Program-made: the position numbers and the translations under genes | Shown here: positions 5,178 to 36,786 of the stretch, piece after piece | Layout of the letters: the number at the start of each line of letters is the position of its first letter | Position numbering within the stretch: the stretch's first letter is position 1 | DNA from: Rubrivivax sp. | GTDB lineage: Bacteria; Pseudomonadota; Gammaproteobacteria; Burkholderiales; Burkholderiaceae_C | Reading direction: 5' to 3' | Length of the DNA stretch: 38,586 bases | Assembly: GCA_016789865.1 (NCBI GenBank) | Contig: JAEUPC010000065.1 | Location: 1-38,586, forward strand | The notes under the pieces: model-generated | Databases searched by the model: none | What the model was told of the DNA's origin: nothing | What the model saw: the letters and a program-made list of their open reading frames with translations, nothing else

Positions 5178-5909
5178 TCAGCCCGCCGCGCGCAACCGCG
5201 CCAGCGCCGCGCCGGCCAGCTCGCCGATGCGCGACAGGAACTCGGTGCCCATGTCAGCCGAGTACCGTGTGGGGTCGGGCGAGCCGAGCACAAGCAGGCC
5301 GAACGCTCCGCCATCGACATGCGGCCCCGGTCGCAGCGGGATCATCGCCAGGCTGGACACCGTGGCGGCATCGTCCAGCCAGCCGGCGGCTTCGAAGCCG
5401 GCGTTCACGCCGCAGTAGGGCAGCGACAGGCTGGCGGCGAAGGTCTTCACGTCGTCGCTTGTGCCGCGTGCGCAGGCAGCGCCGGCATGGTCCTCGGCCA
5501 GCGACCACAGGCGAAGCGCCACCTGTGGAATGAGGAACTCGTGCTTCAGCGTCGCCACCACCACCTCGGGCAGTGCCGCGGCGTCGCTGGTGCGCATGAG
5601 CGCGCGCGTGAAGCGGTGCAGCCGATCGACCAGCGCCATGTTCTCCTGGCCGGCGCGGATCATCTCGACGATCTTCAGCTCCAGCCCTCGGATGCGCTCG
5701 CGCAGCATCTCCATCTGCCGCTCCTGCAGCGACACGGCGCGCTGGCCGTGCGGGCTGGTCAGGCGCACCGCGGCCAGCAACTCGGCGTGGCGTTCGAAGA
5801 AGCCGGGCGTGGCCGCCAGGTAGGCGGCGACGCCGGCCTCGCTGACGCCGGCGGGCAGGGGGGCGGCCGCGGCCCTGCCGGCGCCGCCACTGCTTTCGTG
5901 CTTGCTCAA
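5178..5909 (-). CDS. DUF484 family protein (GAF-like)
   Basis: This 243-residue protein belongs to the DUF484 family, whose members sit between dapF and xerC in many proteobacteria and whose biochemical role is not established. Conserved features include [19 protein letters not shown] near the N-terminus, a coiled-coil-like stretch rich in Glu, Arg and Leu ([19 protein letters not shown]), and a C-terminal GAF-like fold ending with [13 protein letters not shown]. The start appears to be TTG at 5909, which overlaps the dapF stop as TTGA and implies translational coupling. The open frame continues upstream without a better start. Confidence 0.85.
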
Positions 5910-6778
5910 AGCTCGATCTCTCCTTCGAACACGAACTCCGCCGGGCCGGTCATCAGCACCGTCGCGTCGTCGTGCGCCCACTCGACCGTCAGGTTGCCGC
6001 CGCGCGCGTGCACGAGCACGCGGCGGTCCAGCCAGCCCAGGCGGATGCCGGCCACCACCGCCGCGCAGGCGCCGGTGCCGCAGGCCAGCGTCTCGCCGGC
6101 ACCGCGCTCGTAGACGCGCAGCGCGACCTCGCCGCGCCGCACCACCTGCATGAAGCCGGCGTTCACCCGGCGCTCGAAGCGCGGGTGCGCCTCGATTGCC
6201 GGGCCCAGCGTGGCCACCGGTGCGGCGCGCACGTCGGCCACGCGCATCACGGCGTGCGGGTTGCCCATCGACAGCACCGCCACCTCGCCGAGCGCACGAC
6301 CGGCGGCATCGGTCAGCGGCCACAGCTCCAGGCCTGCCGCGTCCGCCCCGCCTTCGCGGCGCGGCACGAGGCCGTGGCCATCGAACGGGATGCGCTGCGC
6401 CTCGAAGATCGGCCGGTTCATGTCCACCGTCACCTGGCCGTCGTCCTGCAGCACGAGTTCGAGCAGGTTGTTCACCGTCTCCACCTTCACGCGCCGCGCG
6501 GTGGTCAGGCCACGTGCGTGCACGTAGCGCACGAAGCAGCGCGCGCCGTTGCCGCAATGCTCCACCTCGTCGCCGCTGGCGTTGAAGATGCGATAGCGGA
6601 AGTCCACACCGGGTGTGCTGCTGCGCTCGACCATCAGGATCTGATCGGCGCCGATGCCGAAGCGCCGGTCGGCCAGCCGCCGCGCCTGCTCGGCACTCAG
6701 CTCCACCGGCGTGCGTGTGCCGTCGAGCACGACGAAGTCGTTGCCCGCGCCTTGCATCTTGGTGAACTTCAGCCGCAT
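5906..6778 (-). CDS. dapF: Diaminopimelate epimerase
   Basis: DapF converts LL-diaminopimelate to the meso form for lysine and peptidoglycan synthesis. The protein is 290 residues, normal for the family. [19 protein letters not shown] is the classic N-terminus, so I start at 6778 rather than at the codon nine residues upstream. Both catalytic cysteines of the cofactor-free racemase mechanism are visible, in [10 protein letters not shown] and [20 protein letters not shown] is also conserved. It lies 55 nt after the GGDEF-EAL gene and overlaps the DUF484 start by 4 nt, so it heads a string running to xerC and rlmI. Confidence 0.96.
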
Positions 6779-19116: not shown

Positions 19117-20295
19117 GTGGCGAACGACTTCCTCTTCACCAGCGAATCCGTCTCCGAAGGCCACCCCGACAAGGTGTCCGATCAGATCTCGGACGCCATC
19201 CTCGACGCGATCTTCAAGCAGGACCCGCGCAGCCGCGTCGCTGCCGAGACGCTGTGCAACACGGGCCTGGTGGTGCTGGCCGGTGAGATCACCACCAACG
19301 CGCATGTCGACTACATCCAGGTCGCGCGCGACACCATCAAGCGCATCGGCTACGACAACACCGAGTACGGCATCGACTACAAGGGCTGCGCCGTGCTCGT
19401 GGCCTACGACAAGCAGAGCAACGACATCGCGCAGGGTGTCGATCACGCGTCAGACGACCACCTCAACACCGGCGCCGGTGACCAGGGCCTGATGTTCGGC
19501 TACGCCTGCGACGAGACGCCGGTACTGATGCCCGCGCCCATCTACTACGCCCACCGGCTGGTGGAGCGCCAGGCCATGCTGCGCAAGGACGGCCGCATGC
19601 CCTACCTGCGCCCGGATGCGAAGAGCCAGGTGACGATGCGCTACGTCGACGGCAAGCCGCACAGCGTCGACACCGTGGTGGTGAGCACGCAGCACGCGCC
19701 CGAGTGGAGCCTGGGCGACAAGATGAAGCCCGCGTTCTACGAGGCCGTCATCGAGGAAATCATCAAGCCCGTGCTGCCCAAAGAGTGGCTGAAGGACACG
19801 CGCTACCTCATCAACCCCACCGGCCGCTTCGTCATCGGTGGCCCGCAGGGCGACTGCGGCCTCACCGGCCGCAAGATCATCGTCGACACCTACGGTGGCG
19901 CCTGCCCGCACGGCGGCGGCGCGTTCAGCGGCAAAGACCCGAGCAAGGTGGACCGCAGCGCCGCTTACGCCGCGCGCTACGTGGCCAAGAACGTGGTGGC
20001 CGCGGGCCTGGCCAAGCAGTGCCAGGTGCAGGTGGCCTACGCCATCGGTGTGGCCAAGCCGATGAACGTGACGGTCTACACCGAAGGCACCGGCAAGCTC
20101 AGCGACGAGAAGATCGCCGCGCTGGTGAACGAGCACTTCGACCTGCGGCCCAAGGGCATCATTCAGATGCTCGACCTGCTGCGGCCGATCTACGAGAAGA
20201 CCGCTGCCTACGGGCACTTCGGGCGCGAAGAGCCCGAGTTCAGCTGGGAAAGAACCGACAAGGCGGCCGCGCTCCGCGCGGCGGCGGGGCTGTAG
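19117..20295 (+). CDS. metK: S-adenosylmethionine synthetase
   Basis: MetK makes SAM from methionine and ATP. The protein is 392 residues, normal for the family. Hallmarks are [20 protein letters not shown], with the ATP-binding histidine, [16 protein letters not shown], the [20 protein letters not shown] region, and [19 protein letters not shown], the methionine/triphosphate loop. I place the start at the GTG at 19117 because GGAG lies 8 nt upstream and the family N-terminus begins exactly there. It is followed by an intrinsic terminator. SAM made here feeds the SAM-dependent methyltransferases, and AhcY and MetF in the same window recycle the by-product. Confidence 0.97.
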
Positions 20296-20336
20296 GCCCC
20301 CGAGCGAAGCGAGCTTGTCGGTTCTCCGGTGCAGGC

Positions 20337-20357
20337 TAACTTCGCGCAGCGAAGTTA
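20337..20357 (+). terminator. 9-bp hairpin after metK
   Basis: TAACTTCGC and GCGAAGTTA pair around GCA. There is no U-run after it, so it probably stabilises the 3' end rather than terminating on its own. The clear terminator is about 60 nt further on. Confidence 0.35.
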
Positions 20358-20413
20358 AGGGGCCCTAGCCCCGTGCCGGAACCAGAAGAAGCGCACCGCG
20401 AAGCGGCACTTCT

Positions 20414-20450
20414 GACGGGCGCCTGTTCAAGGCGCCCGTCGTTGTTTCTG
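20414..20450 (+). terminator. Rho-independent terminator of metK
   Basis: A perfect 10-bp GC-rich stem (GACGGGCGCC and GGCGCCCGTC) with a 7-nt loop is followed by the T-rich GTTGTTTCTG. This is the best intrinsic terminator in the window. Confidence 0.8.
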
Positions 20451-20485
20451 CCCCGATTGGCGAGCCACCGCTTGAGGCCGCCGCG

Positions 20486-20635
20486 CGCCAAGGCCGCCGG
20501 GCGGTCGGCTCCGCGAATGTCCTCCTTCGAGCGCCTGGCTCCGCCAGGCCCTCGAATTCCCCCTTGATTTCGCTGCGCCGACCGCCCGGCGTCCTTGGCG
20601 GGACACGGGCGTGGTTCGGGACGAACTGTCGAAGG
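20486..20635. repeat. Large nested inverted repeat and REP-like sequence downstream of metK
   Basis: Outer arms of 24 nt (20486-20509 and 20577-20600) match at 23 positions. Between them a second hairpin (20526-20556) has TTCGAG/CTCGAA and GCCTGGC/GCCAGGC arms. Beyond the right arm, 20613-20635 contains GTTCGGGACGAAC and resembles the REP-like TTCGACAG...GAAC sequences common between genes in Burkholderiales. No gene is seen in 20296-20661. This may be a non-autonomous repeat or the border of the island that follows. Confidence 0.55.
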
Positions 20636-34981: not shown

Positions 34982-35818
34982 ATGGTCCCCATCAGTTTCG
35001 AGTTCTTTCCTCCCAACACCCCGGTCGGCCGCGAGAAGCTGAAGACCGTGGTGGCCGATCTCGCGGCGGTGAAGCCCGAGTTCTTCAGCGTCACCTACGG
35101 CGCTGGCGGTTCGACGCGCGACAAGACGCTGACCACGGTTCAGGACATCCGCGCCGCCGGCCACGAGGCCGCGCCGCACCTGAGCTGTGTCGGCTCCACG
35201 CGCGAGGGCGTCGCCGAGATCCTGGCCGGCTACCGCACGCTGGGCATCCGCCGCATCGTGGCGTTGCGTGGCGACCTGCCCAGCGGCACTGCCGTGGCCG
35301 GGGAGTTCCGCCATGCCAGCGACCTGGTGGGCTTCATGCGCGAACAGCCCGGCGGCGCAGACTGGCAGGTCGAGGTGGCGGCCTTCCCCGAGTACCACCC
35401 GCAGCAGCGTTATGCGCGGCGCGATCTCGAGCACTTCGCGGCCAAGGTCAAGGCCGGGGCAGACGCCGCCATCACGCAGTTCTTCTTCAACCCTGACGCC
35501 TACTTCCACTTCGTCGACGAGGTGCGCAAGCTCGGCGTCACGGTGCCCATCGTCGCGGGCATCATGCCGTTCCACAACTACGCGAAGATCGCCCAGTTCG
35601 CGGCGCGCGACGGCATCGAGGTCCCGCGCTGGGTGGCGCTGAAGATGGAAGGGTTCATGGACGACGCCGCCTCGATCCGCGAGTTCGGGCTGGAAGTCGT
35701 CACGCGCCTGTGCGAACGGTTGATCGCCGGCGGCGTGCCCGGCATCCACTTCTACACGCTCAACCAGAGCGCGCTGTCGCTGGAGATCTGCCGGCGGCTG
35801 GCCGGCGGCGCGGCCTGA
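34982..35818 (+). CDS. metF: 5,10-methylenetetrahydrofolate reductase
   Basis: MetF reduces methylene-THF to methyl-THF with FAD, supplying the methyl group for methionine synthesis from homocysteine. The 278-residue protein has SFEFFPPNTPVGREKL, FFSVTYGAGGSTRDKT, HLSCVGSTREGV, RIVALRGDLPSG, DAAITQFFFNPDAYF, PIVAGIMPFHNYAKI and the terminal GVPGIHFYTLNQS, all conserved in bacterial MetF. It follows ahcY by 176 bp and is probably under the same riboswitch, so homocysteine release and remethylation rise together. Its TGA stop is part of the long palindrome that follows. Confidence 0.97.
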   Translation: MVPISFEFFPPNTPVGREKLKTVVADLAAVKPEFFSVTYGAGGSTRDKTLTTVQDIRAAGHEAAPHLSCVGSTREGVAEILAGYRTLGIRRIVALRGDLPSGTAVAGEFRHASDLVGFMREQPGGADWQVEVAAFPEYHPQQRYARRDLEHFAAKVKAGADAAITQFFFNPDAYFHFVDEVRKLGVTVPIVAGIMPFHNYAKIAQFAARDGIEVPRWVALKMEGFMDDAASIREFGLEVVTRLCERLIAGGVPGIHFYTLNQSALSLEICRRLAGGAA

Positions 35819-35975
35819 GCTTGTGAAGGTATCCGCCGCGTCCGAGCGGGCGGCCCAGGGCGCGCCACTCATCGTTGCAAATCCTCGCGATACCGCCGGG
35901 TATCGCTGCGGTTTGCGCCTCGATTGGCGCGCTCTGGGCCGCCCGCTCGGACGCGGCGGATACCTTCACAAGCTC
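35817..35975. repeat. 159-nt near-perfect palindrome between metF and the IclR gene
   Basis: Arms of 51 nt (35817-35867 and 35925-35975) are reverse complements with one difference (G35859 opposite T35933), which is still a G-U pair in metF-direction RNA. The inner part (35868-35924) pairs further, including GCGATACC/GGTATCGC around a GCCG apex and a GCAAA/TTTGC segment. It begins inside the metF stop codon and ends 34 bp before the IclR stop, so it lies between convergent genes. It could serve as a two-way terminator or RNA-stability element, or be a miniature transposable repeat. No open frame is needed to explain it. Confidence 0.9.
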
Positions 35976-36009
35976 TGAGCCCCGCCGGCGCCCAGGCTCG
36001 GGCCGGTCC

Positions 36010-36786
36010 TCAGGCCGCCTCGCGGCAACCCAGTTGCGCCGACAGACGCCGCGCGGCGTCGGCCAGCAACTGCGCGGCGTGCCGGCCCGTGTTGCCTTCG
36101 AGCTGCGCACTGGGGCCGATGACGGTCAGCGCGAGCACCATCGAGCCGCTGCTGTCGAACACCGGCGCAGCCATCGCACTGACCCCGGGCAGCGCCAGGC
36201 CCTGCACGCGGGCGAAGCCGGCGCTGCGGATGCGCTCCAGCTCGGTGGCCAGCTCCGGCTCGATGCGCGTGGGCTCGCCTTCGGCGCGCAACGCCGCCGC
36301 CACCTGCGCGCGCGGCAGGTGCGCCGCGAACAGCCGCCCCGACGCGGTGGCGCGCAGGCTCATCACCGTGCCGTGGCGCATGCTCACGTGCACCGGGGCG
36401 TTGGCCTCGGCCACGCGCACGATGGTGGCGCCGTGGTTGCCCCACACGGCCAGCGCCGTGGTGTGCCCGAGTTCGGTGGCCAGCTGTTCGACCAGCGGTG
36501 AGCCCAGCGCCACCGGGTCCAGCGCCTGCAGGCTGATCAGGCCCAGCTGCATGGCCAGCGGGCCCAGGCCGTAGCGGCCCGTGGCGTCGCGTTCGACGAG
36601 GCCGATCTTGCCGAAGCTCACCAGGTACGGGTGAGCCTTGGCCGGCGCCATGCCGGCCCTGGCCGCCAGGTCCTTCAGGGGCAACGGTCGCCCGTGATGG
36701 GCCAGCGCCTTGAGCAGCGCCCCGCCCACCTCGATGCTCTGAATGCCGCGCTGGGCGGCCGCCGGTGCCTCGCGGGGTGACGACAT
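36010..36786 (-). CDS. IclR-family transcriptional regulator
   Basis: This 258-residue regulator has an N-terminal winged helix (about 15-75, GIQSIEVGGALLKALAHHGRP, LPLKDLAARAGMAPAKAHPYL, FGKIGLVERD). The C-terminal IclR effector domain (about 80-250) includes ATIVRVAEANAPVHVSMRHGTV, LRATASGRLFAAHL and GLALPGVSAMAAPVFDSSGSM. IclR proteins commonly control divergent aromatic or carboxylic acid catabolic genes and respond to the pathway substrate. Here the divergent genes encode an MBL-fold protein and an FAD monooxygenase, which fits. The ligand is unknown. Confidence 0.93.
   Translation of the reverse strand: MSSPREAPAAAQRGIQSIEVGGALLKALAHHGRPLPLKDLAARAGMAPAKAHPYLVSFGKIGLVERDATGRYGLGPLAMQLGLISLQALDPVALGSPLVEQLATELGHTTALAVWGNHGATIVRVAEANAPVHVSMRHGTVMSLRATASGRLFAAHLPRAQVAAALRAEGEPTRIEPELATELERIRSAGFARVQGLALPGVSAMAAPVFDSSGSMVLALTVIGPSAQLEGNTGRHAAQLLADAARRLSAQLGCREAA

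Follow-up and report, generated by a model that had tools for sequence, protein, structure and literature searches.

A palindromic element with a conserved bulged tip, common behind stop codons in Burkholderiales, that may move as a folded single strand

The attC sites of integrons lie just after the stop codon of a gene in one orientation and are folded from their bottom strand with extrahelical bases; they are recognised by the R-box motif (RYYYAAC ... GTTRRRY). For REP/REPIN sequences, which are associated with RAYT transposases of the Y1 type, strand-specific insertion is likewise expected, and transposases of the IS5 type have a target preference for TNA or TA. Correia elements (CREEs) are dispersed non-coding hairpins which, according to the part of PMC2649163 drawn on here, are reported only from Neisseria, often insert at TA, and are mobilised by a mechanism reported as undetermined; binding of RNase III to them is also described there (PMC2649163). 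In the portion of PMC4853749 used here, MITEs of Thiomargarita are likened to Correia elements by structure. The family described below is a widespread variant of this palindromic MITE/Correia kind, of which no account was found in the open-access PMC literature, searched also by sequence words. It has two properties not expected of that kind, namely an orientation linked to a stop-codon target and a fold that favours one strand whichever arms are present.

The window is a stretch of 38,586 nucleotides from Rubrivivax sp. (contig JAEUPC010000065.1). Within it, metF (MTHFR; 34982–35818, + strand; PF02219) ends with a TGA at 35816–35818, and its downstream neighbour on the opposite strand is an IclR-type regulator gene (36010–36786, − strand; assigned by domain match and ORF), forming a convergent pair. 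Between the two lies a palindrome, the longest among 23 inverted repeats of the window (arms of at least 20 nt, spacing up to 250 nt), the arms of which (35817–35870 and 35922–35975, + strand) are 54 nt each and 96% complementary, with 51 nt in between. The main features of the original prediction hold: the palindrome begins inside the metF stop codon, the GA of which is common to stop codon and left arm, and the outer 51 nt of each arm (35817–35867 and 35925–35975) contain a single discrepancy, a G·T at pair 43. The RNA fold of 35800–35990 has an energy of −175 kcal/mol, compared with −93.3 ± 4.5 kcal/mol in 200 shuffles (z = −18.2), none of which was as stable. The inner sequence, thought at first to extend the pairing of the arms, is indeed paired, but instead of a mere extension it forms a conserved bulged hairpin in its own right (35871–35923).

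Together with its flanking TGAs, the whole element copy occupies 35816–35978 and belongs to class A as defined below; on the + strand its tip reads CGTTGCAAAT...TTTGCGCC. The orientation of an element is defined here by the direction of the tip core, and in the family it is the opposite strand which folds better. From the sequence and the family ends, the metF stop codon (35816–35818) is taken as the left target copy, and the TGA at 35976–35978 (+ strand) is a direct repeat of it, TGA being the right-hand triplet in 59 of 75 class A copies. The window copy is without two nucleotides of the family left end (TGAGCTTG here, TGAGAGCTTG in the family).

The tip core (35871–35923, + strand) was described by a model of 53 positions built from 35 inner sequences (R1) and by a wider model (R2); the window copy, which is among the sequences from which both were built, matches with 71.9 bits (E 1.6e-17). 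In its anatomy, a GCAAA/TTTGC stem is followed by a single bulged T and two pairs; a small internal loop separates these from an apical stem that covaries. Across 86 distinct sequences, 95.5% of the cells are paired and both sides change in 13 of 17 pairs. The covariation score is 0.435, against 0.125 in shuffled alignments and at most 0.079 for slid partners, in an alignment fitted to the structure; an earlier MAFFT alignment gave 0.266, against 0.090 when shuffled and at most 0.047 for slides. On the tip strand, mismatches inside the helices are far more often A·C (394) than G·U (56), columns common by descent being counted repeatedly; the single conserved U·G of the tip runs opposite to this trend.

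Arms of no fewer than three unrelated kinds surround the same tip: kind A, with TGA followed by GAGCYTGTGAA... and with AGAAGGTGTGAACGAA...; kind B, with CTAG followed by TGTAGTGTTTC...; and kind C, with TTAG followed by GGAAACGCTGAACAAG.... At 68% identity the arms form 28 clusters, several of which are related within one kind, and element size across the superfamily runs from about 100 to 270 bp. An alignment of 38 class A elements contains 50 pairs, with compensatory changes in 27, and CCGCTC-like unpaired motifs on both arms. Longer variants with an extra hairpin in one arm were seen at four loci (L041, L044, L045 and L056), two of which (L045 and L056) measure 273 bp between the end motifs. 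A truncated copy (L204) has a right arm that appears to provide the stop codon of the upstream gene.

In its own genome, the window copy is accompanied by a second full copy at 94% identity elsewhere in the assembly, by short copies of about 60 nt consisting of the outer arms only, by a diverged relative, and by other-armed palindromes with the same inner 50 nt. Matches to the window copy (E ≤ 1e-5) are present in 17 of 61 genomes including its own, that is, in 16 of 60 others; the search of the genome and its relatives that had been proposed with the original prediction thus returned several copies, as a repeat would. With stricter filters, the tip model gave matches in 43 of 200 Burkholderiales genomes; across the class, 24 of 276 genomes had the tip (own genome included in each case), several genomes being multi-copy, and an exact pattern search of named genomes gave at least 119 stretches. 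Among 80 matches listed, all but four carry titles of Burkholderiales or Betaproteobacteria, to which we assigned the genera in the record titles; the exceptions are three titled Proteobacteria and one titled as a Bacteroidetes MAG. The tip on a contig labelled Bacteroidetes MAG-117 (L270) may reflect misbinning or transfer.

With three elements as queries, 6 to 9 of 72,556 plasmid records matched per query. These plasmids are mostly from Burkholderiales; the alphaproteobacterial ones are two from Rhizobium, in which the match covers just an arm and half of the tip, and one from Martelella, with the tip. The Martelella match is tip-like (NZ_CP020331.1, 387936–387986; H18) and lies outside the class searched with the model. 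No plasmid matched a gammaproteobacterial element, and no annotated feature lies beneath the plasmid matches listed. Two records filed under plasmids in PLSDB (NZ_CP119140.1 and NZ_CP119142.1) are N. gonorrhoeae sequences of 2.17 Mb and are chromosome-like. Phages gave no match at E ≤ 0.01, and one exact pattern was absent from viral contigs.

Mobility is best documented in a genome of the same genus (G012; 7.3 Mb, 99% complete), which carries dozens of 165-bp copies and has 107 matches to the end pattern against one for the reversed pattern (at most one mismatch). Of 53 loci taken from it, 40 had the core and both ends as detected by script, the other 13 being deletion forms or copies with undetected ends. 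In 30 of the 40 full copies, the left end lies flush with the in-frame stop codon of the gene upstream (TGA at −3 in 22 and at −4 in six, TAA in one and TAG in one). As judged from GC at codon position 3, a sense frame lies upstream of 35 and downstream of 36 of the 40. Thirty loci corresponding to metF were read from 80 genomes of the genus and gave no clean empty site, and another insertion was therefore used for this comparison: for a G012 copy between aceE and aceF (identified by eye), ten loci were aligned, and three genomes cited here (G015, G254 and G239) have empty sites with a single TGA. The early suggestion of a mobile, MITE-like repeat is borne out by the many copies, their sharp ends, the TGA on both sides in most of them, and these empty sites.

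In class A, 59 of 75 copies have TGA within the left 4 nt and none has TCA there, about 40 of the 75 being from G012, and the right flank has TGA in 59 of 75 and TCA in four. Among 36 class A copies less than 88% alike, 29 have the left TGA and none has TCA (counted from the flanks). TGA stands on both sides in 41 of the 75; one copy has TAA/TAA, and some have unlike triplets, for example TAA/TGA. The target context is C-TGA-G, with C preceding TGA in 42 of 50 cases and G following it in 48 of 59, whereas the targets of the other classes are palindromic or CTAG/TTAG-like. Since TGA is found on the left in 59 copies and TCA in 0 of 75, the target seems to set the orientation of insertion. The main argument for this is the contrast between classes in the side on which a stop codon lies within 20 nt: in class A it is on the left only in 52 copies, on the right only in two, on both sides in five and on neither in 25, whereas the corresponding numbers in the other classes are 19, 14, 4 and 46. 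Among the ten G012 copies that do not lie exactly at a stop codon, the left triplet is TGA in eight, CGA in one, CTA in one and TCA in none, so the direction follows the target and not transcription.

The strand opposite to the reading direction of the tip is the more stable when folded, in 73 of 73 class A elements and 105 of 109 others with RNA energies, and in 73 of 73 and 107 of 109, respectively, with DNA energies. When the tip is swapped for a fixed loop, the opposite strand still folds better in 163 of 167 elements and in 27 of 28 arm clusters, although these statistics rest on related sequences and several of the clusters are mutually related. The bias agrees in 19 of 20 loci from other families of the class, the exception being L430, and it holds in 13 of 14 copies with the host gene on the other side. 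A total of 216 distinct cores gave 183 past the arm filter, of which 182 were folded and 167 entered the arm-only, host-side and motif counts; the split between class A and the others (73/109 for folding, 84/83 for the host side) differs as two regular expressions were used. The 13 of 14 copies with the host mRNA on the other strand rule out weakening of the mRNA as the source of the bias. A role in the host mRNA would not yield such a bias, whereas it could arise if the element itself passed through a single-stranded stage. The folding strand is more likely to move as DNA than as RNA, since in class A it is mostly antisense to the operons and thus the wrong strand for their mRNAs, although the data do not separate the two. 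Integron attC sites share the position after a stop codon, the single orientation and the bottom-strand fold; membership in that group was rejected, as neither strand of any of the 167 elements has the R-box pair.

We consider it somewhat probable (roughly 0.55) that the palindrome is a non-autonomous mobile hairpin element which moves as a folded single strand by means of an enzyme acting in trans, with a direction set by its target and a later homogenisation of its arms. Directly observed are the multi-copy spread, the sharp ends, the flanking TGAs of most class A copies, the empty site with a single TGA, the agreement of insertion direction with the target triplet, and a fold that is better on one strand whichever arms surround the tip. 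In the proposed mechanism, the moving strand would, in class A, be the one antisense to the upstream gene; the enzyme would recognise the bulged tip together with the feet of the hairpin and integrate that strand at short target sequences (CTGA for class A, CTAG/TTAG-like for the other classes). Since a stop codon is part of CTGA and of TAG, both neighbouring genes would be spared by an insertion at such targets, and copies at stop codons would survive. In the window copy the two arms would then have been converted to each other, which would have made a near-perfect palindrome out of a quasi-palindrome. Of the ten G012 copies away from a stop codon, the two with CGA or CTA on the left fit this proposal less well, and the flanking TGAs and near-perfect terminal repeats fit a cut-and-paste MITE with a 3-bp duplication too, one copy having TAA/TAA.

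An ordinary MITE of that sort would have terminal inverted repeats and be mobilised in double-stranded form; a DDE transposase, for example of IS5 type, would move it and duplicate a target of 3 bp (TNA) or TA. Terminal repeats of about 12–20 bp, the C-TGA-G context, the paired flanking TGAs of 41 among the 75 copies (although a TGA belonging to the element end would look identical) and the single TAA/TAA copy are all in keeping with such an origin, as is the frequent insertion of Correia elements at TA (PMC2649163, in the part used here). As C-TGA-G is nearly symmetric and the element ends are inverted copies of each other, however, both orientations would be expected, and orientation is not random at this symmetric target (59 TGA to 0 TCA of 75); the unlike triplets of some copies also argue against it, and the conserved tip and the strand bias under different arms would be left unexplained. 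IS-derived MITEs, including the Correia-like ones of Thiomargarita (PMC4853749, in the portion consulted), resemble the family in their terminal repeats, their hairpin and the lack of a known parental IS, but differ from its fixed TGA orientation in class A and its one tip under different arms. On balance we regard an ordinary MITE as an unlikely explanation, albeit one to be taken seriously.

No mobilising enzyme was found, and no longer copy with the same ends, nor a transposase with matching ends, was recognised among the G012 matches listed, the fetched loci (one class A end pattern) or the plasmids (one class B end); this tells against both the folded-strand proposal and the ordinary MITE. 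Y1_Tnp is more frequent among Burkholderiales genomes with the tip (36 of 43) than among those without it (88 of 157; p = 7e-4), and the PF01797 profile found no Y1 transposase in G012. A RAYT-based profile, searched on the tip-positive side only, gave clear matches in five of the seven tip-positive genomes without PF01797, the window genome included, with a weak match in one (G116, E 0.1) and none in another (G202); it also matches in G012. The RAYT-like proteins of G012 and the window genome are, however, unlikely to be active, because the HUH histidines are missing by eye and there is no Pfam match. This weakens the association of Y1/RAYT enzymes with the element, and they were not retained as the mobiliser; absence of a RAYT with the HUH motif from the window genome has to be read against an assembly of 247 contigs that is 77% complete. 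Inspection around 12 Y1 and 10 RAYT-like loci revealed no convincing tip (best E 0.48). REP/REPIN elements are, like the family, non-autonomous palindromes with a short target at the hairpin foot, but the family has a far larger single hairpin, the GTAG foot occurs in one of 167 elements, and no intact Y1 was found in G012 despite its dozens of copies. DDE_Tnp_1 matches number two in G012 and none in G061, despite the 20 tips of the latter. An IS481-family transposase gene directly beside a same-tip palindrome (L073, Cupriavidus pRK1-5) seems to be an independent neighbour, bounded by ends that differ from those of the palindrome.

RAYT-like proteins were noted at L417 (own genome, C199:18200–22000), L418 (G012), L411 and L414; by eye, that of L411 is without one HUH histidine and the rest are without both. 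In several of the genomes concerned, their genes adjoin what is apparently the gene for the large subunit of glutamate synthase, and may represent a domesticated transposase.

It is improbable that the hairpin is instead a functional RNA, kept for a role in the transcript such as protection of 3′ ends or RNase III processing, although the strong fold with its covariation, the position right behind stop codons and the reported binding of Correia elements to RNase III (PMC2649163, in the part available here) would suit such a role. The better-folding strand of class A is mostly not the mRNA strand, the bias tracks the tip and not the gene, and the G012 copies off stop codons keep their left TGA in eight of ten cases, with TCA in none. 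No Rfam family was matched at gathering score by the window stretch or by eight loci, which gave only sub-threshold matches to miRNA hairpins and isrG. The idea that the palindrome gives rise to a structured RNA survives in so far as one strand appears to be selected to fold; that strand is opposite to the tip reading and, in class A, mostly opposite to the upstream mRNA, whatever the direction of the host gene.

A bidirectional intrinsic terminator, also put forward at first, would suit the convergent arrangement of metF and the IclR-type gene, but is very improbable: no terminator-like site was detected in the window stretch, TTTT occurs within 10 nt past the stem in two of 167 copies on each strand, and many copies lie between co-directional genes, with a co-directional coding frame (by GC at codon position 3) downstream of 36 of 40 in G012. 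An assembly artefact of inverted duplication, for which the fragmented assembly (247 contigs, 77% complete) might speak, can be dismissed for the family and is extremely unlikely for the window copy: the structure recurs at unrelated loci of that assembly (including the 94% second copy), 16 of 60 further genomes match this copy, and single-contig genomes, for example G043, have the structure too.

Returning to the folded-strand proposal, the arms of the window copy inform on how this copy became near-perfect. In the window copy's own register, 11 of 54 arm pairs differ from those of the G012 relative. Eight of these, mismatched in the relative, have without exception become pairs in the window copy; of the other three, two remain pairs and one has turned into a G·T. 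Six of the eight mismatch-repairing changes fall on the left arm, among them a motif nearly invariant across the family: at 35838–35849 (+ strand) the family's unpaired CCGCTC motif has given way to a sequence complementary to the right arm. An intermediate state is seen in the second copy of this genome. This pattern corresponds to the trace expected from template-directed correction of a quasi-palindrome, and the window copy is probably near-perfect because its arms have been homogenised.

Comparison with Correia elements was made on 90 kb of an N. gonorrhoeae record, in which short CREEs were located by their ends. With R2 and filters off, the six short CREEs take ranks 1–6, with E values that are weak one by one but consistent as a group (0.015–0.16), whereas of four CREEs of about 155 bp one ranks 16th and three are absent at E ≤ 10. 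Under R1, three elements of about 105 bp rank 1 to 3 and other CREEs 4, 5 and 9. These matches count as about one event because CREEs resemble each other. CREEs are like the family in being non-coding hairpins of 100–155 bp with terminal repeats, many dispersed copies and a short target of TA type. They are unlike it in that their tip stem is without the AAA/TTT part, their target is TA, and their strand bias is at most slight (four of five elements, by 0.7–3.1 kcal/mol); the window copy ends in TGA followed by GAGCTTGTGAAG, and not in the 26-bp Correia terminal repeat TATAG[CT]GGATTAA... (CREE ends as given in the part of PMC2649163 used here). From the sequence comparison, common descent of the tip and the Correia core is likely, but not proven. 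The wider reading, in which one superfamily spanning the Gammaproteobacteria (beta included) and embracing Correia elements moves as a folded single strand, by a trans enzyme that reads the tip and not the terminal repeats, which would allow entirely unlike arms to bear one tip, with the direction set at stop-containing tetranucleotides, is offered tentatively and may well prove too broad.

If the Correia core is one branch of a class-wide tip, the search for its mobiliser can shift to hosts that are free-living and non-pathogenic and that harbour near-identical copies. Concrete, testable constraints on the moving enzyme come from the link between direction and target and from the preference of one strand for folding. 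The family also accounts for long unannotated hairpins behind stop codons, and illustrates a route by which a quasi-palindrome may become near-perfect.

Elsewhere in the window, at 20251–20600, a run of strong hairpins lies immediately behind, and partly overlaps, an ORF that by eye resembles metK; one of them has 32-nt arms at 91%. This run has a fold z of −7.3 and no match to the tip model. Some loci of the family show compound arrangements. At L126 (610–663) and L142 (392–443), a second, weaker tip core in the reverse direction adjoins the first, giving a branched hairpin, and at L278 two class A elements (5750–5907 and 5911–6067) lie in tandem and co-oriented, with one TGA in common.
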